Shown: in pieces, positions 17,475 through 62,163 of the stretch
Layout of the letters: each line of letters starts with the position of its first letter
Position numbering within the stretch: position 1 is the stretch's first letter
The notes under the pieces: model-generated
Seen by the model: only the letters and a program-made list of their open reading frames with translations
Databases searched by the model: none
What the model was told of the DNA's origin: nothing
Program-made: the position numbers and the translations under genes
Source of the DNA: a virus
IMG/VR virus record: IMGVR_UViG_3300030108_003282
Coordinates: 30,927 to 94,926 of that record
Direction: 5' to 3' (one strand)
Length of the DNA stretch: 64,000 nucleotides

Positions 17475-20021
17475 CTATTCTTCGGTAGGAAGGGGTAATT
17501 TGTTATACCTATCTTCATAAATATTCCACTTTCCTTCATCCCCTTCCTTATCAGCAGGAGTTTGTTTATATCCAGTCCATGCAAGCCACATTCTTTGTCC
17601 ATCTACGTCTAAGACTCTATAATGCATTTTAGTTTCAAACTTGTTGCCTTCTAAGAAATATTCATGATAGCCGTCCCTTTGAATGCCTAATCTTATCTTT
17701 CCAGAATCAATAACTTTTCCCTTAGTTACTGTTTTTGCTACTTCTGCTGGATATTTCCCAGCCGCACCGAATAAATCAAAAAGTTCTTCCTCATTCTCGA
17801 CATTAATTGTCCAAAACATATTTTCAGTTTTAAGTTTGATTGCTAATGTTATATTATCATCTTCTCTCGAATAAAGTTTGAATTCACCCTCTCTTAACTC
17901 AGGCGGTGTTTTATATTCACCTTCGACGGCTTTAATATCTTCTTTTTTAATTTCTTCTTCCTGCATGATTTTATCATCATCAGCAACTATTTTATTGTCT
18001 TTTTCGCTAATACCGTCTCTAAGAATAGACCATTGTTTAAGTTTTTTCTCATCAGAATCAAGAACCTCTTCATATAAACTGGGCTGTTTTTCTTTTAAGA
18101 AATTATGTAATTGTTTTGGTGTCTTAGGACCATTCATTTTTAAATGCTGAAAAATAGCAACAGTTAAATCGCTTTGTTTTGATTTCATAATATCAATTAC
18201 CTGTTGCTTCCACATATCTAAATCCATTGTAGCATTTCTAGACATTAGATTATCTTCTTCATAGCCATAGATTGTAAATCCATCTATATCATATTTGATA
18301 ATAATATTTGCTTCTCCATGAATATGGTCAGTAATTTTTATTCCTTTTGTGAATGCTTCAACATCATAATTAAGAGATTTCTTAGTGTCTTGAGAAAGTA
18401 ATTCTAATGTGACTAGTTTATCGGGATGTTCTACTTCGGGAATCTCAATAGGTTTTGCTGAAAACAAACTAAACCCGTCTCCCTTCTTTTTGACTTCATC
18501 TACCTTTACTCGAATAATATCCCCAACATCTACAGAAATTTTTGTATTGAGTGCTTTACCTACATTCAAATAATGTCTTTTCTTTATTTCAACTGCTCCA
18601 GTCATTTCTTCATCAACTGGCCCAACACCCACAGTATAAGAAAATAGATTACTTTTTGTTTTCTTCTTATCTAAAACAATAACATCTAAGTCAACAAACT
18701 TCTTCAATTTAATCCATTTTGGATTTTTCTTAGTGCCAATATAATAAGTTGAAGTAGCGTCTTTAATAACTACTCCTTCAGATGTAGGAATTTGCATCAT
18801 TTCTTCTGCATACTTCTCAATATCTTTTAAATTATCTGCTTGGCGAGTATCTTTCTTTGATGGATATGCTATCGCTTCGCTAGATTTAGAGGAATAGTTA
18901 TTGAATAAAATTGTCATTCGGTTCTCTAATTCTTCGTCTGCCAATGTCTGAGATTCGTGGCGAATAATATCAAAAACATGGCATCGAAGTTTAGCGTCTT
19001 TATATTTCCCTTTGAAGACATGAGCGACGGTATCGGCTCTATGAAGAGGCTCATCATTATTAAAAAGAACCAATTCTCCATCTAAAATACAATCACCATA
19101 CTCTTTTTTCTTTAATTCCTTTACTTGTTCTTTACATTGTTCAGAAATGTCTTTACCATTAAATGAATATATTTTAACATTGTCATCAATTTTATGCAAC
19201 TGGACTCTCATCCCGTCGTATTTTTCTTGAACATACCAGTTGCCACTAAACCCTTTTAATTCATTAATATCATCTACTTCAAAAATTCTATACATGGGTT
19301 TATTAGGAATAATAAACTGCGATATGGACTTTTTCTCATCACTCGGAATAGACTTCTCTAATCCGTCTATATCTTTCAGTTCTTCCCAATCTTCCTCTTC
19401 ATTTTTAGAAAAGAAGATTAGTTCTAACATATCCATAGCAGCCTTTACTTTCGATTCGACCTTTTTTGAGTCTTTTCCGTCTCCGTAATGTTCTATAATA
19501 TAGAGGGCTATGTCGTCCGATTCTAGGTCAAGACCCATAAGACCCTCCGTAATTGTGTCGGGACGCATCCCTTTAACACTATAAATGTCAGCAGATAGGG
19601 CTTTATTATCGTCCCTTAATGCATAATGCACAAATTTAACCATAGTTTCTGGATTATCTAACAATTCTTCAAGAACACCGTCCTTGAACATCGTTGCGAA
19701 AGGGTCAGCAACGATAGATGAGGAATAGCGAAGAAGTTTTACTTTATCAAACAGTTCTTTTGCTTGTCTTGAAGAAGGGTCTTTTGCGTCTTTGTCTTCT
19801 AAATCCTTTTCATCAATAAAGTTTCTCATCTCTTTTCCTGCGGCATCACTCTCATTATAAGAGTCTATAATCATATCAACCGCTTTACGCCAACGACCCG
19901 AATATTCTGTAGGGTCTTGTCTTGCAGATAAATAGGCAACTCTTGTCTTTTCAAATAGACGAAGAATTTCTTGGGAAGGCTGTTTATCCTTCTCAATAGA
20001 ACCCAACTTCATACAAATCAT
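17475..20021 (-). CDS. ATP-dependent DNA ligase with long C-terminal extension
   Basis: An 848-residue protein. The ligase core has motif I KYDGMR (Lys near residue 266, the AMP acceptor), motif III DGELVLF, motif IV SEGVVIKD and motif V WIKLKKF. An N-terminal helical domain of about 230 residues matches archaeal/eukaryal ligases and would clamp DNA. About 300 extra residues follow the OB region. They include a possible winged helix (AIFQHLKMNGPKTPKQLHNF) and a C-terminal domain of unknown type (about 715-848). It seals nicks using ATP. Unusually it lies inside the head gene operon, so it may be packaged or expressed late. Confidence 0.9.
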   Translation of the reverse strand: MICMKLGSIEKDKQPSQEILRLFEKTRVAYLSARQDPTEYSGRWRKAVDMIIDSYNESDAAGKEMRNFIDEKDLEDKDAKDPSSRQAKELFDKVKLLRYSSSIVADPFATMFKDGVLEELLDNPETMVKFVHYALRDDNKALSADIYSVKGMRPDTITEGLMGLDLESDDIALYIIEHYGDGKDSKKVESKVKAAMDMLELIFFSKNEEEDWEELKDIDGLEKSIPSDEKKSISQFIIPNKPMYRIFEVDDINELKGFSGNWYVQEKYDGMRVQLHKIDDNVKIYSFNGKDISEQCKEQVKELKKKEYGDCILDGELVLFNNDEPLHRADTVAHVFKGKYKDAKLRCHVFDIIRHESQTLADEELENRMTILFNNYSSKSSEAIAYPSKKDTRQADNLKDIEKYAEEMMQIPTSEGVVIKDATSTYYIGTKKNPKWIKLKKFVDLDVIVLDKKKTKSNLFSYTVGVGPVDEEMTGAVEIKKRHYLNVGKALNTKISVDVGDIIRVKVDEVKKKGDGFSLFSAKPIEIPEVEHPDKLVTLELLSQDTKKSLNYDVEAFTKGIKITDHIHGEANIIIKYDIDGFTIYGYEEDNLMSRNATMDLDMWKQQVIDIMKSKQSDLTVAIFQHLKMNGPKTPKQLHNFLKEKQPSLYEEVLDSDEKKLKQWSILRDGISEKDNKIVADDDKIMQEEEIKKEDIKAVEGEYKTPPELREGEFKLYSREDDNITLAIKLKTENMFWTINVENEEELFDLFGAAGKYPAEVAKTVTKGKVIDSGKIRLGIQRDGYHEYFLEGNKFETKMHYRVLDVDGQRMWLAWTGYKQTPADKEGDEGKWNIYEDRYNKLPLPTEE

Positions 20022-40427: not shown

Positions 40428-40670
40428 TTACTGGCCTCTTGCATTTAATTCGTCTCGACATTCTTCAAGCATTTCTCTAATTTTTCTTAGTTGTTGTTCA
40501 GGTCTATCTGCCTTCATTTCATACATTTTAAGTAAATATTTCATTTCTTCAAGAAATTCATCTTTTTTAGGAATAGGCTTTCCTTCATCGTCTAAGCCTC
40601 TTTCCTCGTAATCCCTGCCGTATTCATCAAATGCAGGAGGAAGATTCTTTTTAATGCTTTCTTTCCACAT
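40428..40670 (-). CDS. Trp-tagged small acidic protein
   Basis: About 80 residues from ATG 40670, after GGAAAGATTGAT. It starts M-W-K-E-S-I-K-K, a tag variant without the residue between Met and Trp. The rest is charged and helical. A longer frame upstream lies in another gene and lacks a signal. Confidence 0.65.
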   Translation of the reverse strand: MWKESIKKNLPPAFDEYGRDYEERGLDDEGKPIPKKDEFLEEMKYLLKMYEMKADRPEQQLRKIREMLEECRDELNARGQ

Positions 40671-40671
40671 A

Positions 40672-40875
40672 TCAATCTTTCCGAGTAAATGGATTTTTAG
40701 ATTTAGGTTTCTTTTTAGCATCTTTAGCCGCTTCTTTCATCGGCTCTTTCTTATTGCCATCTTTATCTAAATCTAAGAAATCGGGCTTTGCCGCTTTTAG
40801 TTCTTCGTCATCAGCCTTTTCAGTCCCACAATGTGCCTTTTCGTCTTCTTTCCTAATAATGTCTCTCCAACTCAT
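40672..40875 (-). CDS. Trp-tagged protein with EF-hand-like loop
   Basis: A 67-residue protein starting M-S-W-R-D-I-I-R-K, then the DLDKDGNKKEPMKEA motif, an Asp-rich loop resembling an EF-hand that is common in small phage head proteins. The C-terminus is Lys/Ala-rich. Could bind calcium; probable cargo. Confidence 0.7.
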   Translation of the reverse strand: MSWRDIIRKEDEKAHCGTEKADDEELKAAKPDFLDLDKDGNKKEPMKEAAKDAKKKPKSKNPFTRKD

Positions 40876-40979
40876 TTTTTCTCACCTGTAATCAAGTCTT
40901 TGTTTTGTTTTTCTTCTTCTTTATCTAAACGCTTTGATTCAACATCAAGCCATTTATCTAGTAATGTGCATCTTGTCAT
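40872..40979 (-). CDS. Small hypothetical protein
   Basis: A 35-residue frame, ATG at 40979, stop overlapping the next ATG (ATGA) and containing its AGGTGAGAAAAA signal. Sequence is charged and helical with one Cys. Supported by tight packing only. Confidence 0.5.
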   Translation of the reverse strand: MTRCTLLDKWLDVESKRLDKEEEKQNKDLITGEKK

Positions 40980-41174
40980 CTATTTAGCCTCCAAAAATAG
41001 TTTTTTCAAAAATCTTCTGACTTCGCCTCGTTGTGCTGTATTTAAATCTCTTTGTGGACGGCTTCTGTTTAATAAAGTATCAATTCTTGCTAAGACACTA
41101 TCAGCAAAATCCATAGCATCCATTCTAAGTTGCTGTTCATCTGACCTTTGCTTCTTAATATCATCTTTCCACAT
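40980..41174 (-). CDS. Trp-tagged small protein
   Basis: About 64 residues from ATG 41174, starting M-W-K-D-D-I-K-K, nearly the same tag as at 40428 and 41179. Helical and basic after that. A longer frame start at 41198 is within the upstream gene and would hide the tag. Confidence 0.65.
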   Translation of the reverse strand: MWKDDIKKQRSDEQQLRMDAMDFADSVLARIDTLLNRSRPQRDLNTAQRGEVRRFLKKLFLEAK

Positions 41175-41178
41175 AATA

Positions 41179-41433
41179 TCAAGCCTCAAAAATTTCATTC
41201 AAAAATTCTTCAACATCGCCTAAATCGTAAATCATATCATCTATTCTATCAAGAGAATCTAAAATATCTTGATTATCTAAATCAATTGCAATGCTTTGTA
41301 TTTCTTGATGTTCTTCCGCAATAACTCTTAAAAGTCTTTTCAAAGACTCAGCCTTTAATCTAATGATTCTTGCTTGTCTAACATTGGGATTAATGCTATA
41401 ATCAGGTTGTTTCCTAATATCCTCTTTCCACAT
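41179..41433 (-). CDS. Trp-tagged small protein, first gene of leftward block
   Basis: An 84-residue protein starting M-W-K-E-D-I-R-K behind AGGTGATATT. It is helical with an acidic C-terminus. It is the first gene of the unbroken leftward set that runs to position 1, so its upstream region (41434-41641) probably holds a late promoter. Confidence 0.7.
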   Translation of the reverse strand: MWKEDIRKQPDYSINPNVRQARIIRLKAESLKRLLRVIAEEHQEIQSIAIDLDNQDILDSLDRIDDMIYDLGDVEEFLNEIFEA

Positions 41434-41881: not shown

Positions 41882-42020
41882 ACTGTATCATGTTATGGCA
41901 GTAAGCCACAGGCTATAATACTGGCGGTTTTACCTTGAAATAATTAAAGATAATGCGTTAAAATAGAGCATTTAAAGCATTTCGTTCTAAATGAGAAGAA
42001 TTAAAAAATTTGAAACAAAG

Positions 42021-42030
42021 CCATATGGTT
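42021..42030. repeat. Palindrome copy 1 (CCATATGGTT)
   Basis: CCATATGG preceded by CAAAG. It is an 8-base version of the ACCATATGGT dyad and the left boundary of the array. Confidence 0.7.
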
Positions 42031-42215
42031 GTAGATTATGAATGCGGGAAATGTTGTTAATAACTACCATTTTCATCTATTGTCTTATTTTCATCTTTCT
42101 TAACAGTTCTCTATAGAACGCTATTGGTAACTACAAAATGTTTGTTTACACTCATCTATGACAAATATAATTATATGCCTATCATCTCTAAATGATAGTT
42201 ATTAAATACTCTAAC

Positions 42216-42225
42216 ACCATATGGT
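42216..42225. repeat. Palindrome copy 2 (ACCATATGGT)
   Basis: Full dyad followed by CTTTG three bases later, then the CCCCAG-CGAA-CTGGGG terminator-like hairpin facing the end of the gene at 42286. Confidence 0.85.
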
Positions 42226-42248
42226 TGGCTTTGCCAGTTTGGACGAAA

Positions 42249-42264
42249 CCCCAGCGAACTGGGG
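42249..42264 (-). terminator. Hairpin terminator after 42286-42792
   Basis: Perfect 6-base stem CCCCAG/CTGGGG with a CGAA loop, 22 bases beyond the stop of the leftward gene, between it and palindrome copy 2. Comparable tetraloop hairpins follow the other cassette genes. Confidence 0.6.
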
Positions 42265-42285
42265 CTACGGAGGGAAAAGCCAGCA

Positions 42286-42792
42286 TCATTCCTCCTCTTG
42301 ACCTCCTTCGTCGGATTTAACCGCAGGTGGGGTCATTGCTGGGATTTCACCGTTCATGGTTCCGTCCCAACGACCTTCTTTGTAGCCCTTAACGAGAGCA
42401 TCATAGGCTTTTTTGCCCATAGATTGAGCAAATGCCTCGATGTCGTCAAAAGCGCCACCAGTTCGCCCATGAGGGAGAATAACGGTGGTAATCAAGTCAG
42501 GGTTAGTAATACCCGCAAAGGCAGCAATGACCGCATTCTTCACAGAATTGGCAGACAAATCCACTTCTTCGGGCAAAGCCGATTCTCGGCCTCTTCGGGC
42601 GGCTGGGAAATCCGAGTAAGGACTCCCAATTGAGCGAATAGCAGTCCAGTAGGTGGAGCGCAAATCATCGCTATCTGTTGCATTTCCAAGTGTAATAGAC
42701 AAAGAAATGGCATTACCCACGTCTCCCCTATCTTCACGCTCAAGCCATGCTTGAACGGCATTTGTGTTCTTAATCCAATTTTCCTTCTTCAT
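42286..42792 (-). CDS. Cassette protein, paralog A
   Basis: A 168-residue protein starting with MKKENWIKNTN behind GGAGGAATTGAT. It is clearly related to the proteins at 44061 and 46449. Shared features are LRSTYWTAIRSIGS, FPAARRGRES, VILPHGRTGG and KEGRWDG, followed by an acidic, Gly/Pro tail. No known fold recognised. High Arg in the centre could mean nucleic-acid binding. It is the sole gene between palindromes 2 and 3. Confidence 0.75.
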   Translation of the reverse strand: MKKENWIKNTNAVQAWLEREDRGDVGNAISLSITLGNATDSDDLRSTYWTAIRSIGSPYSDFPAARRGRESALPEEVDLSANSVKNAVIAAFAGITNPDLITTVILPHGRTGGAFDDIEAFAQSMGKKAYDALVKGYKEGRWDGTMNGEIPAMTPPAVKSDEGGQEEE

Positions 42793-42902
42793 ATCAATTC
42801 CTCCAAAAAGGGTTTGATGCCCCGTTTTCCCTCCGAAGCACTAAATCGGAGACGGTGGCGTATATGGTTGCTTTTGCATTAACACTCGCAAAGCGAAAAG
42901 CA

Positions 42903-42912
42903 ACCATATGGT
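42903..42912. repeat. Palindrome copy 3 (ACCATATGGT)
   Basis: Dyad with CAAAG on the left and CTTTG on the right. To its left GGTTGCTTTT...AAAAGCAACC forms a stem. To its right a CCCC-GAA-GGG hairpin faces the end of the gene at 42945. Confidence 0.85.
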
Positions 42913-42944
42913 TGTGACTTTGCTCACAACCCCGAAGGGCGGAT

Positions 42945-43256
42945 TTACATCCAGTTTTGATAGTATTGGGCCTTATATTTACCAGTATCACGGTTAAAGT
43001 GCATCAAGGTGATTTTACCTTCCCATGTTTGGGCTAATGCCAAGAATGAGGTCAATGCTGGAGTTAAACCAGTGATATAGAGAGTTAATACTTCAACCTC
43101 TTCAATTTCATAGAGAAAATCACTTGCTTGGCCTTCAAGCAAATCAAAGTCCATAGGGTCCTCAATATGTCCATATATGTATTTATCAATTATCTCACCA
43201 TTAGCGTTCTTAATCTCATGTCGTCCTTTACAAAGCCCTACTTCCATCACTCGCAT
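42945..43256 (-). CDS. Cassette protein, small Rossmann-like alpha/beta
   Basis: A 103-residue protein. The second half has strand-helix-strand character (VEVLTLYITGLTPALTSFLALA, then KITLMHFNRDTGKYKAQ). This vaguely recalls small CRISPR-linked sensor proteins such as Csx3, but the similarity is too weak to name it. ATG is preceded by GATTAAATC, also seen before the gene at 43690. Only gene between palindromes 3 and 4. Confidence 0.65.
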   Translation of the reverse strand: MRVMEVGLCKGRHEIKNANGEIIDKYIYGHIEDPMDFDLLEGQASDFLYEIEEVEVLTLYITGLTPALTSFLALAQTWEGKITLMHFNRDTGKYKAQYYQNWM

Positions 43257-43303
43257 GATTTAATCGGAAAAACTTGGATAATAGCGGGGTATCGCAAAGT
43301 GCT

Positions 43304-43313
43304 ACCATATGGT
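43304..43313. repeat. Palindrome copy 4 (ACCATATGGT)
   Basis: Dyad flanked by CAAAG-TGCT and TGTT-CTTTG, symmetrical. It lies between two divergent genes, each starting about 47 bases away. Confidence 0.85.
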
Positions 43314-43360
43314 TGTTCTTTGATAAAACCATACTATTGGCGCATATAAACACTTGGGGT

Positions 43361-43600
43361 ATGTCATATGTGCATGGATTGGGAGATGCCCAAGAAAGGT
43401 TTGCTAAAGATTGGGACTACAAATACGGCTGGATTAACGATTTGAAAATTATTTGCCCTCATTGTGGTTCCGAACATACTGAGGTTGAAGGATTTGAACA
43501 AAGCGATTCTTGGGAGTTTGGTCAAGAATGGACTATTGAATGCTGGTGCGAAGGTTGCAGCAAAGAGTTTGAATACATCCATGAGGTGGATTATTCCTAA
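43361..43600 (+). CDS. Cassette protein with zinc ribbon
   Basis: A 79-residue protein from ATG 43361 (47 bases after palindrome 4). It holds Cys-x2-Cys (CPHCGSEHTEVEGF) and CWCEGC, enough for one zinc ribbon. A CATATAAAC stretch at about 43342 could be the TATA element. A GCC-TTCG-GGC hairpin follows the stop (43607-43616). Function unknown. Confidence 0.7.
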   Translation: MSYVHGLGDAQERFAKDWDYKYGWINDLKIICPHCGSEHTEVEGFEQSDSWEFGQEWTIECWCEGCSKEFEYIHEVDYS

Positions 43601-43606
43601 TTAGAT

Positions 43607-43616
43607 GCCTTCGGGC
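43607..43616 (+). terminator. UUCG hairpin after 43361-43600
   Basis: GCC-TTCG-GGC lies seven bases beyond the stop and before palindrome 5. A stable UUCG loop, parallel to the hairpins after the other cassette genes. Confidence 0.5.
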
Positions 43617-43633
43617 TCTTTATCAAAGATACG

Positions 43634-43643
43634 ACCATATGGT
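43634..43643. repeat. Palindrome copy 5 (ACCATATGGT)
   Basis: CAAAG-ATACG-dyad-AGTG-CTTTG. It lies between two rightward genes, 33 bases after one stop and 46 before the next start. Confidence 0.85.
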
Positions 43644-43689
43644 AGTGCTTTGTTTTACCCCAGTTAATTTGGGTCTGTATGATTAAATC

Positions 43690-43950
43690 ATGCAGTCAGT
43701 ATGGATTATTGAGCAGAAGCAAGGAAACGATTGGAAACCTCAGATGTATCTCGGTGTTCATCGCTGGGAAAACAATGCAACGGCAGAAATGCACAGGCAC
43801 ACGCAGAATCTCCAAATCAACGAAATGCGAACCATTCCAGATTTGCGCTCTCCGAAGCGTGGTGAAGGAAAGCGCATCTTTGGCATGAAAATGCGAGAAA
43901 TCGCTGAGATTCCATCACACTTCCGAGTTTGCCAACTCAGAATACGTTGA
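43690..43950 (+). CDS. Cassette protein, basic, 86 residues
   Basis: Starts at ATG 43690 after GATTAAATC, 46 bases from palindrome 5. Basic protein with several His (MHRHTQNLQI) and a DLRSPKRGEGKRIFG stretch. Not recognised. A GGGGGGC-TTT-GCCC hairpin follows its stop before palindrome 6. Confidence 0.65.
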   Translation: MQSVWIIEQKQGNDWKPQMYLGVHRWENNATAEMHRHTQNLQINEMRTIPDLRSPKRGEGKRIFGMKMREIAEIPSHFRVCQLRIR

Positions 43951-43995
43951 TGGCCTTTGGGGGGCTTTGCCCTCCATTGGGTATTACAAAGCATT

Positions 43996-44005
43996 ACCAT
44001 ATGGT
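43996..44005. repeat. Palindrome copy 6 (ACCATATGGT)
   Basis: The most symmetrical copy: TACAAAG-CATT-ACCATATGGT-TTTA-CTTTGTA. It lies between the 3' ends of two convergent genes, with a CCCC-GAAA-GGGG hairpin at 44023-44034. Confidence 0.85.
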
Positions 44006-44022
44006 TTTACTTTGTATAAACC

Positions 44023-44034
44023 CCCCGAAAGGGG
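44023..44034 (-). terminator. GAAA hairpin after 44061-44576
   Basis: CCCC-GAAA-GGGG with a GNRA loop, 27 bases beyond the stop of the leftward gene, next to palindrome 6. The following GGGGCTACaAGGG matches the flank of paralog A, so the two cassettes are related outside the gene too. Confidence 0.55.
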
Positions 44035-44060
44035 CTACAAGGGGGAAAAGCCTTGTAGAA

Positions 44061-44576
44061 TCATTCCTCTTCGGAACCTCCATTATCAGCCTTTACAGGC
44101 GTTGGTTCAATTTGAGGAACACCGTCTTTCAACGAAAGACCGTCCCAGCGATTTTCCTTGATGGACTTAACCATGTAGGAATGCGCCTTACTGCGGAACG
44201 AATCAACCAATTCGCTGAAGGAGCCATAAACTCCACCAGTTCGGCCATGTGGCACAATAACTGACAAAATCATGTCGTGGTATTCAGTAGGGATTGCAGC
44301 AATAGCACCTGCCACGGTTTCCTCCACAGTCGCCAAAACAAGTTCCTGTTCGTCTGACAAGGTTGATTCTCGGCCTCGTCGTGCCGCAGGAAAACCCTCC
44401 ATAGTGGAACCAATTGAACGAATTGCCGTCCAATAGGTGCTTCTTAGTTCATCAGTACCCGCATTATCTCCCAATGTGAGAGAAAGCATCACTGCGTTCA
44501 AATTGTCGCTCGGTTCTTGAGTTTCAGCCCAAGCCCGAACCTTGTTCGTGTTTAGTGTCCAATTTTTCATCTTCAT
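44061..44576 (-). CDS. Cassette protein, paralog B
   Basis: About 171 residues from ATG 44576. The GTG nine bases upstream is part of the GAGGTG signal. It is similar in length and order of motifs to paralog A: NTNKVRAW, LRSTYWTAIRSIGS, FPAARRGREST, VIVPHGRTGG, NRWDG. It ends in the same acidic tail (VKADNGGSEEE). Sole gene between palindromes 6 and 7. Function unknown. Confidence 0.75.
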   Translation of the reverse strand: MKMKNWTLNTNKVRAWAETQEPSDNLNAVMLSLTLGDNAGTDELRSTYWTAIRSIGSTMEGFPAARRGRESTLSDEQELVLATVEETVAGAIAAIPTEYHDMILSVIVPHGRTGGVYGSFSELVDSFRSKAHSYMVKSIKENRWDGLSLKDGVPQIEPTPVKADNGGSEEE

Positions 44577-44684
44577 TTTTTTCACCTCTTCCTTTCAAAA
44601 AGATACTTCAAGTCTATTTCCCCCTTGAAGCACTAATAGGGGCAAGGTAGCAAATAAGGTTGTTTTCATGCAAAGCAAAAAACA

Positions 44685-44694
44685 ACCATATGGT
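44685..44694. repeat. Palindrome copy 7 (ACCATATGGT)
   Basis: CAAAG-n8-dyad-ATTG-CTTTG. A GGTTGTTTT...AAAACAACC stem overlaps its left side, as near copies 3 and 9. It separates two divergent genes. Confidence 0.85.
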
Positions 44695-44741
44695 ATTGCT
44701 TTGTAAATACCGTATAGAATAGAGAACAAGACAATAAAAGC

Positions 44742-45005
44742 ATGTCAAGAGAAATAGTGCTTAGACTTGCTGAAATGTCTCCTTTGTTGAAGAACTGGAT
44801 TGAACCCCAAGTAAATAACGCCGTTAAGCGTGATTTTACCGAGTTTGCTGATGAACCTAATGCTATGATTGGAATATTCATCATGGAGCAGTCTATTGCT
44901 GGCTTTGCTAAAGAAATGGCTAAATGTGCTATGGAGTTCTTGTATGAGGAATTGCAGACCCAATTGCAGGATATTACCTCTGATTTGCTCAAAGAGTGGA
45001 TTTGA
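44742..45005 (+). CDS. Cassette protein, helical, 87 residues
   Basis: Starts at ATG 44742, 47 bases after palindrome 7. A TATAGAATA stretch about 29 bases upstream could give a leaderless mRNA. The protein is mainly helical (RDFTEFADE, then FAKEMAKCAMEFLYEEL). Not recognised. A GGAGCA...TGCTCC stem follows the stop. Confidence 0.65.
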   Translation: MSREIVLRLAEMSPLLKNWIEPQVNNAVKRDFTEFADEPNAMIGIFIMEQSIAGFAKEMAKCAMEFLYEELQTQLQDITSDLLKEWI

Positions 45006-45081
45006 GGAGCATTCTGCCACCTGCGCCATCCTGAGCATCTGCTGATGTAAAACTGCTCCCTTCGGGTTTATCCAAAGTAAC

Positions 45082-45091
45082 ACCATATGGT
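45082..45091. repeat. Palindrome copy 8 (ACCATATGGT)
   Basis: CAAAG-TAAC-dyad-GGTG, CTTTG further out. CCC-TTCG-GG with ATAAACC lies on the left side, facing the previous gene's 3' end. Confidence 0.85.
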
Positions 45092-45133
45092 GGTGTTAAT
45101 GCTTTGCATTAATAGAACCATAAAAGAAACATG

Positions 45134-45195
45134 GTCGCAACGGGACAGGGAAAAGCCTAATGCAGTTTTTTTCGTGCTAATTTGTCCGTTGCGAC
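45134..45195. repeat. Inverted repeat with 13-base arms
   Basis: GTCGCAACGG(G)ACA at 45134-45147 pairs with TGTCCGTTGCGAC at 45183-45195, with a T-rich loop. It lies in a 343-base stretch (45006-45349) without a good gene. Could be an RNA hairpin or protein-binding site. Confidence 0.6.
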
Positions 45196-45349
45196 TTTTG
45201 AATATGAAAAACGCCGCCTACTCCATTAATCCGACTTACCCCCGTACTTTGTTTTTCATGCCTTCGTGCAGATAACTAGTATCTCGTACACTCCATGTTT
45301 CTTTCGGGCTTTACTGCGTTTGTTTCGGCTTTGTTTCCGATTGGTATAT

Positions 45350-45457
45350 ATGGCCAATCAACCAAAGGAATATGAAAGGTGGGAAGAAGAACTGGGTATC
45401 TCCATCATAGAAGCGATTGGGTCGCTCTCACTTATAGACGCTCTTATGTTATCTTAA
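45350..45457 (+). CDS. Possible small protein, 35 residues
   Basis: Frame from ATG 45350, acidic and helical (KEYERWEEELGISIIEAIGS). A GGTATAT just before the ATG resembles a TATA element but is too close. Coding is plausible but weakly supported. Confidence 0.35.
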   Translation: MANQPKEYERWEEELGISIIEAIGSLSLIDALMLS

Positions 45458-45704
45458 GAGCCTATGAACCATTCTTACGAACATGATTAGTAGTCATGCG
45501 CCTTTTGAGCCTTAATCGCTTTCACAGGGAACGAATAATTAACCATTTAGTCATCATATCCGCTTTGTGTCCCACTACAGGAAAGAATGTGCATTAACCC
45601 CGTCTATTGGGCCATTGATGCTATTCCCCTTCGGGGTTGCATGCCCCGAAGCAAAAAATTGGTTCTTACGCCAAATAAGGTTATTAATTGCAAAGCAATC
45701 AACA

Positions 45705-45714
45705 ACCATATGGT
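45705..45714. repeat. Palindrome copy 9 (ACCATATGGT)
   Basis: Last full dyad, preceded by GGTTATTAATTG-CAAAG-CAATCAACAACC, a long imperfect stem like that at copies 3 and 7. Confidence 0.85.
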
Positions 45715-46448: not shown

Positions 46449-46925
46449 ATGGATGATACCACATGGGAAAGCCTCGTCATTGAGGTGAACGAATACCTAG
46501 AAGCCGACACTACGCTTGATGCAGGATTGCGTCAAGTTATTGAACTGAACCTGCAAATTGGGACAAACAACCCTAATGAGCGAACTGCCGCAGAAGGAGC
46601 ATTAAAGGCTCTTTTGAAGGGAAGAGACGGAACTCCATTCCGTCGAGGCCAAAAGAGCGCAGTTCCAGCCGCAGTTCGTGTTTCAATTGACCGAATCTGT
46701 GGAGTTGTTGAAGAAGCCGCATTAGGCTACTACAACCACGATGCAATTATTGGTGCAATTACCATGAAGCACATCAAATCTGGTGGCGGTGCTTTTGACA
46801 ACGGAGAAGAATACGCTTCTGCTGTTGTTAAGCGAACCAGAACCAATCTTGGCAAAATGTTCAAGAGTGGTTCTTGGGACGGTAGCGTTGATTCCCTCTT
46901 AGGAAACAACGAAACCACGCTTTGA
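46449..46925 (+). CDS. Cassette-type protein, paralog C
   Basis: A 158-residue relative of the proteins at 42286 and 44061, more diverged. It keeps an FRRGQKSAVP segment, GGGAFDNGEEYASAVVK and GSWDGSV in the same order. It has its own promoter outside the palindrome array. Function unknown. Confidence 0.75.
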   Translation: MDDTTWESLVIEVNEYLEADTTLDAGLRQVIELNLQIGTNNPNERTAAEGALKALLKGRDGTPFRRGQKSAVPAAVRVSIDRICGVVEEAALGYYNHDAIIGAITMKHIKSGGGAFDNGEEYASAVVKRTRTNLGKMFKSGSWDGSVDSLLGNNETTL

Positions 46926-49480: not shown

Positions 49481-49726
49481 ATGGAATACGAAGAATTTGA
49501 GAAGATAACTGAAATGTGGTCATACAATGATATGGTTGCATATATGATGGAAGATGACCGTTGGTGTGATGCGATTATTTGGTTTATCCGAGATAACTGG
49601 GAAGAGGCCGATAAAGATATTACACTTGATAATTTAAATGCCTTTGGTAAATCTAAGGGCTATCCAATTCAAACTAAATTAGAGTTTGATGCATGGAATG
49701 ATTTTAAAACAAAGGAAGATGAGTGA
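49481..49726 (+). CDS. Acidic hypothetical protein
   Basis: An 81-residue, very acidic, Trp-rich protein (MWSYNDMV, AIIWFIRDNWEEAD) with GAGGTGATAAA before the ATG. Its acidity and size resemble DNA mimics or inhibitors, but there is no direct evidence. Stop overlaps the next gene's start region. Confidence 0.65.
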   Translation: MEYEEFEKITEMWSYNDMVAYMMEDDRWCDAIIWFIRDNWEEADKDITLDNLNAFGKSKGYPIQTKLEFDAWNDFKTKEDE

Positions 49727-49727
49727 A

Positions 49728-51032
49728 ATGGAAGCAATTGTGGCAAAGCGTGAACTTGGTAATGGCCGTTGGGATAAAGCCCTAAAGCGCAAAATGGTCG
49801 AATTGTCCGTTGCTGATAACTATGATGAAGCAAAAGAAGAATGGATTGCTACTGGTGAAGTTTGGTGGGCAGGAAACGAAGAAGTTCCTGATTGGGTCGC
49901 TAATTCACAAATGGGGCAAGGTAAGTGTCTTTGTGGACATATTGTAGTTTATCACTTTCAAATCACCAATACTGAAAATGGTGTTGTTGAATGTGTTGGT
50001 AGCGACCATATCAATACTTATCTAATTATGCGAGCAATTGCAGAAGATGAAGGTATTTCTGTTGATGCTATTACAGATGAAAAGATTCAAGCATGGATTG
50101 ATGTGCGAACAAAATCAATGAAAGCCGAAGCATGGTGGAAAGCCAACGGTGCTGGATTTGAAATGATGTTTGATTCAGTCAAAGAAATGGATTTATTCTA
50201 CAATGTTCGTGATACAAACAAAACCTATTATGACCCTGAAACTGAATGGTATGATACTGAAAAGGTTATCCGTAAGCGAGCAGATGGGCAATTTGGTTCT
50301 CCTGATTATAAGATGGCTTCTATCGTTTGGCGATGGAATCATCCCGATAATCCAAAAGCACAGATTAATACAACAGGTTATCCTAATGACAATCTAATGA
50401 AAGATTTGTCTTTGTTCTATGTAATGCAAGCCCAGTATTTGCCACGATTTAATGACGCAAAAGAAAAGCGAGCAAAGCGTATTGCTGATTTAGCAGAAAA
50501 GCAACGACTTGCAGAAGAAAGAAGGGAACGAAGGCGTTTAGAAGCAGAAGCAAGAGAAGCCGAGCGTTTGCGTATTTACAATCTTCCTGAAAATGTTGAG
50601 AAGCGTCGTCTTCAAGCAATTGAAGATGAAAAGCGTAGGCAAGAACAGATTCTTATTAATCAGAAACTACGACAAGAAAGAGAACAGCGTGAAAAAGCGA
50701 AAAAGATTGCTGAACAAATGAAGCAAGAAGAAACATTAACTTCAATCAATGATGACTTTGAAAATATGTGCGACTATTATGGCGTACCTGTGTTTGATGA
50801 ATCATTTGCTGGTAATGACTGGGAACGAGCCTTTCTGTCTAGTGTTAAAGAACAAATGCTTAAAGGCAAAGAAATGACTGATAGACAATTGTCTACTTTA
50901 CAAAGAGTTCTTGTAAAGGAAAAGGCAACTGAAAAACAAATTAATTACTTGTTAAGTCTTGGCTATGAAGGCCGAACAACTGGTTTGAATAAGATTCAAG
51001 CAAGTGAATTAATTAAACAACACATTCAATGA
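49728..51032 (+). CDS. Zinc-site and coiled-coil protein
   Basis: About 434 residues from ATG 49728 (GGAAG nine bases before); an ATG at 49719 is also possible. CLCGHIVVYHFQI, then ECVGSDHIN form a small Cys/His domain known from phage proteins. A long Arg/Glu coiled coil follows (about 250-345). The C-terminal 30 residues (ATEKQINYLLSLGYEG) form a helix-hairpin often found at the end of DNA-related phage proteins. Function unknown. Confidence 0.65.
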   Translation: MEAIVAKRELGNGRWDKALKRKMVELSVADNYDEAKEEWIATGEVWWAGNEEVPDWVANSQMGQGKCLCGHIVVYHFQITNTENGVVECVGSDHINTYLIMRAIAEDEGISVDAITDEKIQAWIDVRTKSMKAEAWWKANGAGFEMMFDSVKEMDLFYNVRDTNKTYYDPETEWYDTEKVIRKRADGQFGSPDYKMASIVWRWNHPDNPKAQINTTGYPNDNLMKDLSLFYVMQAQYLPRFNDAKEKRAKRIADLAEKQRLAEERRERRRLEAEAREAERLRIYNLPENVEKRRLQAIEDEKRRQEQILINQKLRQEREQREKAKKIAEQMKQEETLTSINDDFENMCDYYGVPVFDESFAGNDWERAFLSSVKEQMLKGKEMTDRQLSTLQRVLVKEKATEKQINYLLSLGYEGRTTGLNKIQASELIKQHIQ

Positions 51033-61734: not shown

Positions 61735-62163
61735 ATGCAACTAGAATTAGGAATAGTAATAGGAAGCCTGACTACGGGAATAATTTTTATGATTATTACC
61801 CGTTTTATTAACCGCCCCGTATTAGAACCAACTATACATGATAGGTTCAATACATTAGTATGGTCTAAAATAACTAAACAAGGTATGGAGAGAAATAAGA
61901 ACAACTTCAAATCTTTTACTCAATCAATTTATGGTTGGGATAAAGATGATGAAGGTAACTTAACTCCTAATTGGGATGAACAAGCAGTTATTGATGAAAT
62001 GAAAAGAATGAGAAATCAAAATCAAAGTTGGTCAGGAATCGCTAGAACATTGAATGAAAAAGGATTCAAAGGAAAAAAGGGCGGTAAATTTACCCCACAA
62101 ACAATTAAAAGAACTATGGAAAATCCTTTCCATGATAAGAGAACTCAATTTAAGGAGGAATAA
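61735..62163 (+). CDS. Membrane-anchored protein with recombinase-like helix
   Basis: A 142-residue protein. Residues 4-24 (ELGIVIGSLTTGIIFMIIT) form a membrane helix. The C-terminus (SWSGIARTLNEKGFKGKKGG, then TPQTIKRTMENPFH) resembles the DNA-binding motif of large serine recombinases, without a catalytic domain. Likely membrane-tethered DNA binder or a misleading similarity. Confidence 0.55.
   Translation: MQLELGIVIGSLTTGIIFMIITRFINRPVLEPTIHDRFNTLVWSKITKQGMERNKNNFKSFTQSIYGWDKDDEGNLTPNWDEQAVIDEMKRMRNQNQSWSGIARTLNEKGFKGKKGGKFTPQTIKRTMENPFHDKRTQFKEE

Follow-up and report, generated by a model that had tools for sequence, protein, structure and literature searches.

The window analysed here is a stretch of 64,000 nucleotides (nt) covering positions 30927-94926 of a 94,926-bp virus record (IMGVR_UViG_3300030108_003282). 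Between window positions 42020 and 45714 it holds an array of short units, here called cassettes, which are bounded by copies of a 10-bp palindrome, ACCATATGGT. Eight exact copies and one near copy, GCCATATGGT, all fall within this interval, and no exact copy was found outside the array anywhere in the 94,926-bp record. When one mismatch is allowed, the window contains 14 matches where 1.4 are expected, a count that none of 100 shuffles reached.

Organization of the cassette array

At its left end the array begins with what we call the anchor (41994-42029, + strand), an A-rich boundary, AATTAAAAAATTTGAAACAAAGCCATATGGT, with a fixed outer half-site whose pattern recurs outermost in relatives. 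The near-copy site occupies positions 42020-42029. The anchor adjoins AT-rich non-coding DNA at a sign change in GC skew and is a candidate origin or attI-like site. Cassette 1 (42025-42220, family G) adjoins the anchor in the window and in four relatives and has no convincing gene; it ends at the first exact palindrome (42216-42225), a putative recombination site. Cassette 2 carries a minus-strand gene (42286-42792) for a 168-amino acid (aa) protein of family A, the commonest cassette protein, whose predicted fold is all-helical. Beyond the next palindrome (42903-42912), cassette 3 has a minus-strand gene of 103 aa with no assigned function (42945-43256), which belongs to a family found in seven arrays, with the open reading frame (ORF) on the same strand in all of them. 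A head-to-head palindrome (43304-43313) separates it from cassette 4, whose plus-strand gene (43361-43600) encodes a small zinc-ribbon-like protein, judging from weak Pfam and PHROG zinc-ribbon matches on the longer ORF 43274-43600.

The palindrome at 43634-43643 is followed by cassette 5, with a plus-strand gene of 86 aa (43690-43950, family 53) to which no function is assigned; this cassette is also present in the related array L006, where it has another neighbour. The site that closes it (43996-44005) is a tail-to-tail junction, with both flanking arms intact and no gene start adjoining. Cassette 6 holds a second family A paralog of 171 aa on the minus strand (44061-44576), and a head-to-head palindrome (44685-44694) leads into cassette 7, whose plus-strand gene of 87 aa (44742-45005, family E) also has no assigned function. 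After the palindrome at 45082-45091 comes cassette 8 (45087-45709, + strand, family C), which is non-coding: it has no conserved ORF, and covariation points to a structured RNA at about 45319-45657. The last palindrome (45705-45714) forms the right edge of the array, and a further family A paralog of 158 aa (46449-46925, + strand) is fixed just outside it.

Read from left to right, the six array genes are oriented -, -, +, +, - and +. Their ATG codons lie 47-48 bases from a palindrome in four cases and about 109-111 bases in the two family A paralogs. A first-pass annotation of this DNA had described the eight exact and one near palindrome copies, the one-gene intervals with these orientations, the spacing of the start codons, the CAAAG and CTTTG flanks and the hairpins at gene 3' ends, and each of these features was recovered. 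Two points can be added. There are also two gene-less units, 42020-42225 and 45082-45714, and the offset of the CAAAG/CTTTG arms from the palindrome core is variable, mostly 3-10 nt. Both the arms and the small GC hairpins near the 3' ends of genes can be seen in the window array, and both are general across the arrays described below.

Distribution and conservation of the site

In nine contigs with a gene related to the first gene of the array, the number of exact sites ranges from 1 to 10. A scan for armed sites found at least 119 stretches in IMG/VR, and among GTDB contigs an array was seen on one short contig only, L134 (NZTP01000027.1), binned in an Altibacter metagenome-assembled genome; since its cassettes match those of these viruses, this contig is probably viral sequence that strayed into the bin. 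When loci were merged by contig, 91 IMG/VR contig-block arrays with at least three exact sites resulted, a pattern-based sample of assembled sequences that includes fragmentary contigs. The nine whole records each have one array, with 4-11 exact sites and none elsewhere in the genome. A palindrome-array search of distant relatives found through UvrD (L168, L171 and others) gave chance or tandem repeats only, and no report of such a locus was found in the open-access literature searched.

Among array-bearing records the identity of family B DNA polymerase (PolB) to that of the window virus ranges from 43 to 93%, so that the site is old and has been strictly kept. A perfect core is present in 324 of 361 two-armed sites and a single mismatch in 36, always at position 1, 2, 9 or 10. 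The central CATATG, the invariant part of the site, is intact in all 360 of these; core conservation is in part built into the search, although any mismatch in the centre would also have been registered, and there was none. Clustering of 720 array segments gave 106 families with at least two members and 189 singletons, with zero orientation conflicts among 2111 links.

Rearrangement among related viruses

Comparison was possible for 104 pairs of arrays sharing at least three segments. Rearrangement is seen in 59 pairs, 11 of them with inversions, while 38 are collinear with gain or loss of cassettes and 7 are identical. Gene order and orientation are thus not identical in all relatives, which the first-pass annotation had named, together with palindromes conserved only as promoters, as what would refute its reading. 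Of the rearranged pairs, L009 and L014 are the closest (median identity 92.6%); they differ by the inversion of cassette K, which keeps its own end arms on both sides, and by the insertion of cassette J. When orientation is read relative to the fixed anchor, 18 of 51 cassette families show both directions. Outside the array, on the UvrD side, the genes remain collinear, with order and orientation conserved among relatives.

The breakpoints coincide with the palindrome. In 52 pairs, not all independent, the same cassette end faces different neighbours; here the interior of the cassette shows an identity of about 0.8-1.0 and the ten bases one of 1.0, and from the very next base the value is about 0.35. 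Of the alignment ends between arrays, 100 of 309 (32%) fall within 15 bp of a site, compared with 5.4% of array bases. Units have been gained, lost, moved and inverted between relatives, the joint lies inside the palindrome, and the arms travel with the unit. The mobile cassette array proposed in the first-pass annotation is thus supported, with its predicted breakpoints inside ACCATATGGT.

Structure of the cassette ends

The CTTTG arm is present at 303 of 316 gene-head ends and at 285 of 316 gene-tail ends. At 27 tail-to-tail junctions, where no gene start adjoins, both arms are kept in 23, which argues that the palindrome is not simply a promoter. Signals of the kind expected for transcription are found inside the cassettes, separate from the palindrome. 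An ACC(C/T)TA motif lies about 27-30 nt before the ATG in 53% of heads compared with 16% of tails, which is where the TATA region of archaeal genes with short leaders would be expected, and a CCC-N3-5-GGG hairpin occurs near 38% of tails and 4% of heads. With a head motif and a tail hairpin, each cassette looks like a complete transcription unit, in agreement with the earlier description.

The outer half-site of the anchor, A-rich and of the form AATAAAAAATTT-N-CAAAGCCATATGG, was found in 55 of 91 arrays, and it is always single, outermost and outward-facing. Of the 36 arrays without this pattern, 21 are cut off near an array end.

The virus and its genes

The window virus has a genome of about 95 kb arranged in two opposed gene blocks. 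It encodes a PolB split over two ORFs, a clamp-loader ATPase, two ATP-dependent ligases, a TCP-1/cpn60 chaperonin, an ERCC4/HHH nuclease, a Cas4-like nuclease, a TFIIB zinc ribbon, a UvrD helicase, ribonucleotide reductase and a tail tube protein. Magroviruses are viruses of Poseidoniales archaea that have been described as without an identifiable integrase (PMC10768690, PMC12999244). The features given for them, namely a length of 90-110 kb, opposed replication and structural blocks, PolB, clamp loader, ligase, TFB, chaperonin and no integrase (PMC10768690, PMC12999244), are all found here, and the gene content fits assignment to the order Magrovirales. The array-bearing large marine viruses are apparently viruses of archaea.

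For about 45 genes of the window virus, relatives occur in seven or all of the eight other whole records. The two ATP-dependent DNA ligase genes (window 17475-20021 and L149:5696-7243) are both present in nine of nine whole records, the 848-aa one lying in the structural block. To the left of the array, a run of small minus-strand genes (window 40428-41433) whose products have MWK-D-I-K-like starts (for example 40980-41198 and 41179-41433) is likely a paralog family. INPHARED was searched with family A and with two core proteins and yielded no relative.

Cassette contents

Family A is represented by 162 distinct relatives in the loci examined and has a conserved WDG motif. There are usually one or two members per array in addition to the fixed paralog at the array edge (in the window, 42286-42792, 44061-44576 and 46449-46925). 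The AlphaFold 2 (AF2) model of the cassette 2 protein, with a predicted local distance difference test score (pLDDT) of 88, is all-helical, and no match was found in Pfam, PHROGs or the PDB. Given the helical model and the lack of a PDB fold match, the idea that family A is the recombinase has no support. Cassette proteins as a whole had almost no matches in Pfam and PADLOC.

The non-coding cassette found at 45082-45714 in the window is carried by 13 arrays and has no conserved ORF. When six members were folded to a consensus, 118 pairs were obtained, of which 32 show compensatory changes, and 95.2% of cells pair, compared with 37-46% when the partners are slid by 1-3 columns; double changes are found in 59 cells, against 4-9 when slid. 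A search of Rfam gave no credible match. On this strong covariation, the plus-strand stretch at window 45319-45657, about 340 nt, is a probable new structured RNA.

A candidate site-binding protein

A core gene outside the window (L149:8422-8826, record coordinates) encodes a single-domain protein of 134 aa with a LAGLIDADG fold (PDB profile E 3.6e-20). Its AF2 model has a pLDDT of 89 and a predicted template modelling score (pTM) of 0.80, and a Foldseek comparison matched it to I-TnaI (E 8.9e-8). The protein is present in all 28 array-bearing records tested, and none of the 28 sequences has D or E at the catalytic column. Single-domain LAGLIDADG proteins are homodimers that act on near-palindromic DNA. 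Because they bind DNA of roughly this symmetry, the core protein is the best candidate for recognition of the array site, a suggestion based on its co-occurrence with the site and its fold. It resembles LAGLIDADG homing endonucleases such as I-TnaI, I-OnuI and I-PnoMI in fold, but differs from them in the missing catalytic acid and in being a free-standing core gene in the records read, and it is apparently a domesticated DNA binder. It is followed directly by the gene of a conserved P-loop protein (L149:8826-9671).

Other candidates did not hold. A PF07508 match at window 61735-62163 was rejected as a shared enzyme since it is present in only one of 22 array-bearing records; the 142-aa protein has a hydrophobic N-terminal stretch and a C-terminal PF07508 segment (serine-recombinase DNA-binding) and is without a catalytic domain. 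The core gene at window 49686-51032 had no PDB match.

Comparison with known systems

Like integrons, the viral array consists mostly of single-gene cassettes beside a fixed boundary, and their content and order vary among relatives. An IntI-type tyrosine recombinase, however, was not found in the virus records (PF00589 in 0 of 30), the array cassettes each have a promoter-like head, and their genes face both ways. In integrons the imperfect hairpin of attC imposes one orientation; here a 10-bp palindrome of perfect symmetry takes the place of an attC, and cassettes therefore invert and occur in both orientations. The anchor may be compared with attI in position alone, its half-site being outermost in 55 of the 55 arrays that have the pattern. 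Cassette G stays beside it in the window and four relatives.

The dif modules of Acinetobacter plasmids (pdif, XerC/XerD) are similar in that short sites bound the modules, inversions and deletions occur, and no recombinase lies in the array. They have asymmetric XerC and XerD half-sites, a 6-bp spacer and alternating C and D modules (PMC13141974), whereas in the viral array the half-sites are equivalent, every end joins with any other end, and the arms are loosely spaced. The promoter early stem-loops (PeSLs) of T4-type phages and the motif of the halovirus HGTV-1 are likewise short intergenic repeats in a variable region of a tailed virus and have been linked to shuffling. According to secondary sources (PMC4503421, PMC3950731) the PeSL is directional and contains the promoter of the downstream gene; the viral site is symmetric and also lies between gene tails. 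Compared directly, the HGTV-1 motif is a different one: the stretch examined has TATAAAAA together with a repeat of CTCCTCGTGCCACGAGGAG before same-strand genes and no ACCATATGGT array. The motif, once compared with PeSLs (PMC3950731), is on direct reading a directional repeat that contains TATA. The viral array behaves like a cassette array, yet it lacks a defining feature of each of the three, integrons, dif modules and PeSLs; its site is symmetric and any two ends join freely, which distinguishes it from them.

Proposed mechanism and alternatives

The locus is probably a cassette array that recombines at a symmetric site, the single array of a magrovirus-type virus, and we infer strand exchange. 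A unit is mostly one gene with its own promoter-like head and terminator-like tail, and either end of it is half of the symmetric site, ATGGT followed by CTTTG 3-10 nt further in; the full palindrome ACCATATGGT is formed where two ends abut. A trans-acting protein common to these viruses would recognise the CATATG-centred palindrome, and the LAGLIDADG-fold protein, as a dimer on symmetric DNA, would be best suited for this. Since such a site is not directional, a recombination event joining two of its copies could delete, insert or invert the DNA between them, and the array may serve as a reversible cassette store at the border of the two opposed gene blocks. As the LAGLIDADG-fold protein lacks catalytic acids, cutting and joining would need another enzyme, for which the paired ligases and the nucleases are possible partners. 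A more specific form of the proposal, that the virus encodes a system of a new class in which the catalytically dead LAGLIDADG-fold homodimer marks the CATATG-centred site and a partner cuts and rejoins the ends in either orientation, integron-like but bidirectional, is one that we hold only tentatively and consider unlikely as it stands.

Several observations weigh against recombination at a dedicated site. Many cassette families, including the two commonest, show one preferred orientation, so inversion does not occur freely. Even the closest of the rearranged pairs is no more than 92.6% identical, and no event has therefore been caught in progress. The offset of the CTTTG arm varies, unlike the targets of tyrosine recombinases or LAGLIDADG proteins, whose geometry is fixed. 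Searches of the array-bearing records for a tyrosine recombinase (PF00589, 0 of 30, with 14 of 14 controls positive), a serine recombinase (PF00239, 0 of 21) and Hjc (PF01870, 0 of 21) were all negative; of the partner that the first-pass annotation had proposed to look for, the recombinase was not found, and the LAGLIDADG-fold candidate binder was. That protein is tied to the site by co-occurrence alone, and four diverged outgroup records (22-64 kb) keep its gene and show no array. The conserved basic segment differs in the outgroup copies, and no alternative palindrome was found in the partial contigs concerned (G050, G055-G057); an array-less outgroup fits a link between protein and site, but the comparison is confounded by ancestry and by incomplete contigs.

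The main alternative is homology-driven modular shuffling, in which the armed palindrome is a short repeat kept for another reason, for example because a regulator binds it, and the genes are reordered at such short homologies by general recombination of the virus or by template switching. That no dedicated recombinase was found in array-bearing records is in its favour, as is the complete replication set of these viruses, nucleases and two ligases included, and shuffling mediated by PeSLs is an established proposal in T4-like phages that has been extended to HGTV-1 (PMC4503421, PMC3950731). Ten base pairs, on the other hand, are very short for homologous exchange, CATATG is exact across viruses whose PolB is 43% identical, the joint in the 52 pairs lies in the core and not in the arms, and the HGTV-1 motif is unlike ACCATATGGT; we regard this explanation as a serious rival, if a less probable one. 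A host-encoded recombinase, such as archaeal XerA acting on dif-like sites, could move the cassettes in the way that XerC/D acts on Acinetobacter dif modules. The virus records are without tyrosine or serine recombinase domains and a module system using host Xer exists (PMC13141974), but in GTDB the array is found only on the one short Altibacter-binned contig, probably stray viral sequence, and dif sites are asymmetric with fixed spacing where the array site is symmetric with variable arms, which makes a host enzyme improbable.

That the sites are bidirectional promoters or operators of one regulator and nothing else, with differences in order incidental, is very unlikely. Most gene starts do lie at a set distance from a site, and the viruses encode a TFB-like protein as well as the probable LAGLIDADG-fold DNA binder. 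The one-regulator operators suggested by the first-pass annotation may be an additional role of the sites. Operators would, however, leave the rearrangements and the 27 tail-to-tail sites unexplained: core and arms are kept at 23 of the latter, arms are nearly as common on tails as on heads, the promoter-like motifs sit separately inside the cassettes, and breakpoints coincide with the core. Assembly artefacts at repeats could be suspected because array ends often coincide with contig ends, but they are an extremely remote explanation of the array differences. A repeat of this length falls far below that of an assembly k-mer, the arrays are identical in independent assemblies (3300021958 and 3300021964; 3300001450 and 3300025168), and rearranged cassettes carry diverged sequence.

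Implications for magrovirus biology

Magroviruses are widespread viruses of marine archaea that are themselves abundant, and hardly any of the accessory genes of these viruses are characterised. If the proposed recombination is confirmed, magroviruses would have a locus dedicated to the exchange of single genes in either direction, integron-like in effect, with symmetric sites and no recognised recombinase, and the array would be of a new kind should the recombination enzyme itself prove new. The boundaries of the arrays provide a simple rule for collecting hundreds of such genes and at least one undescribed structured RNA. The acquisition and swapping of small takeover or counter-defence genes by lytic viruses would then become directly testable.

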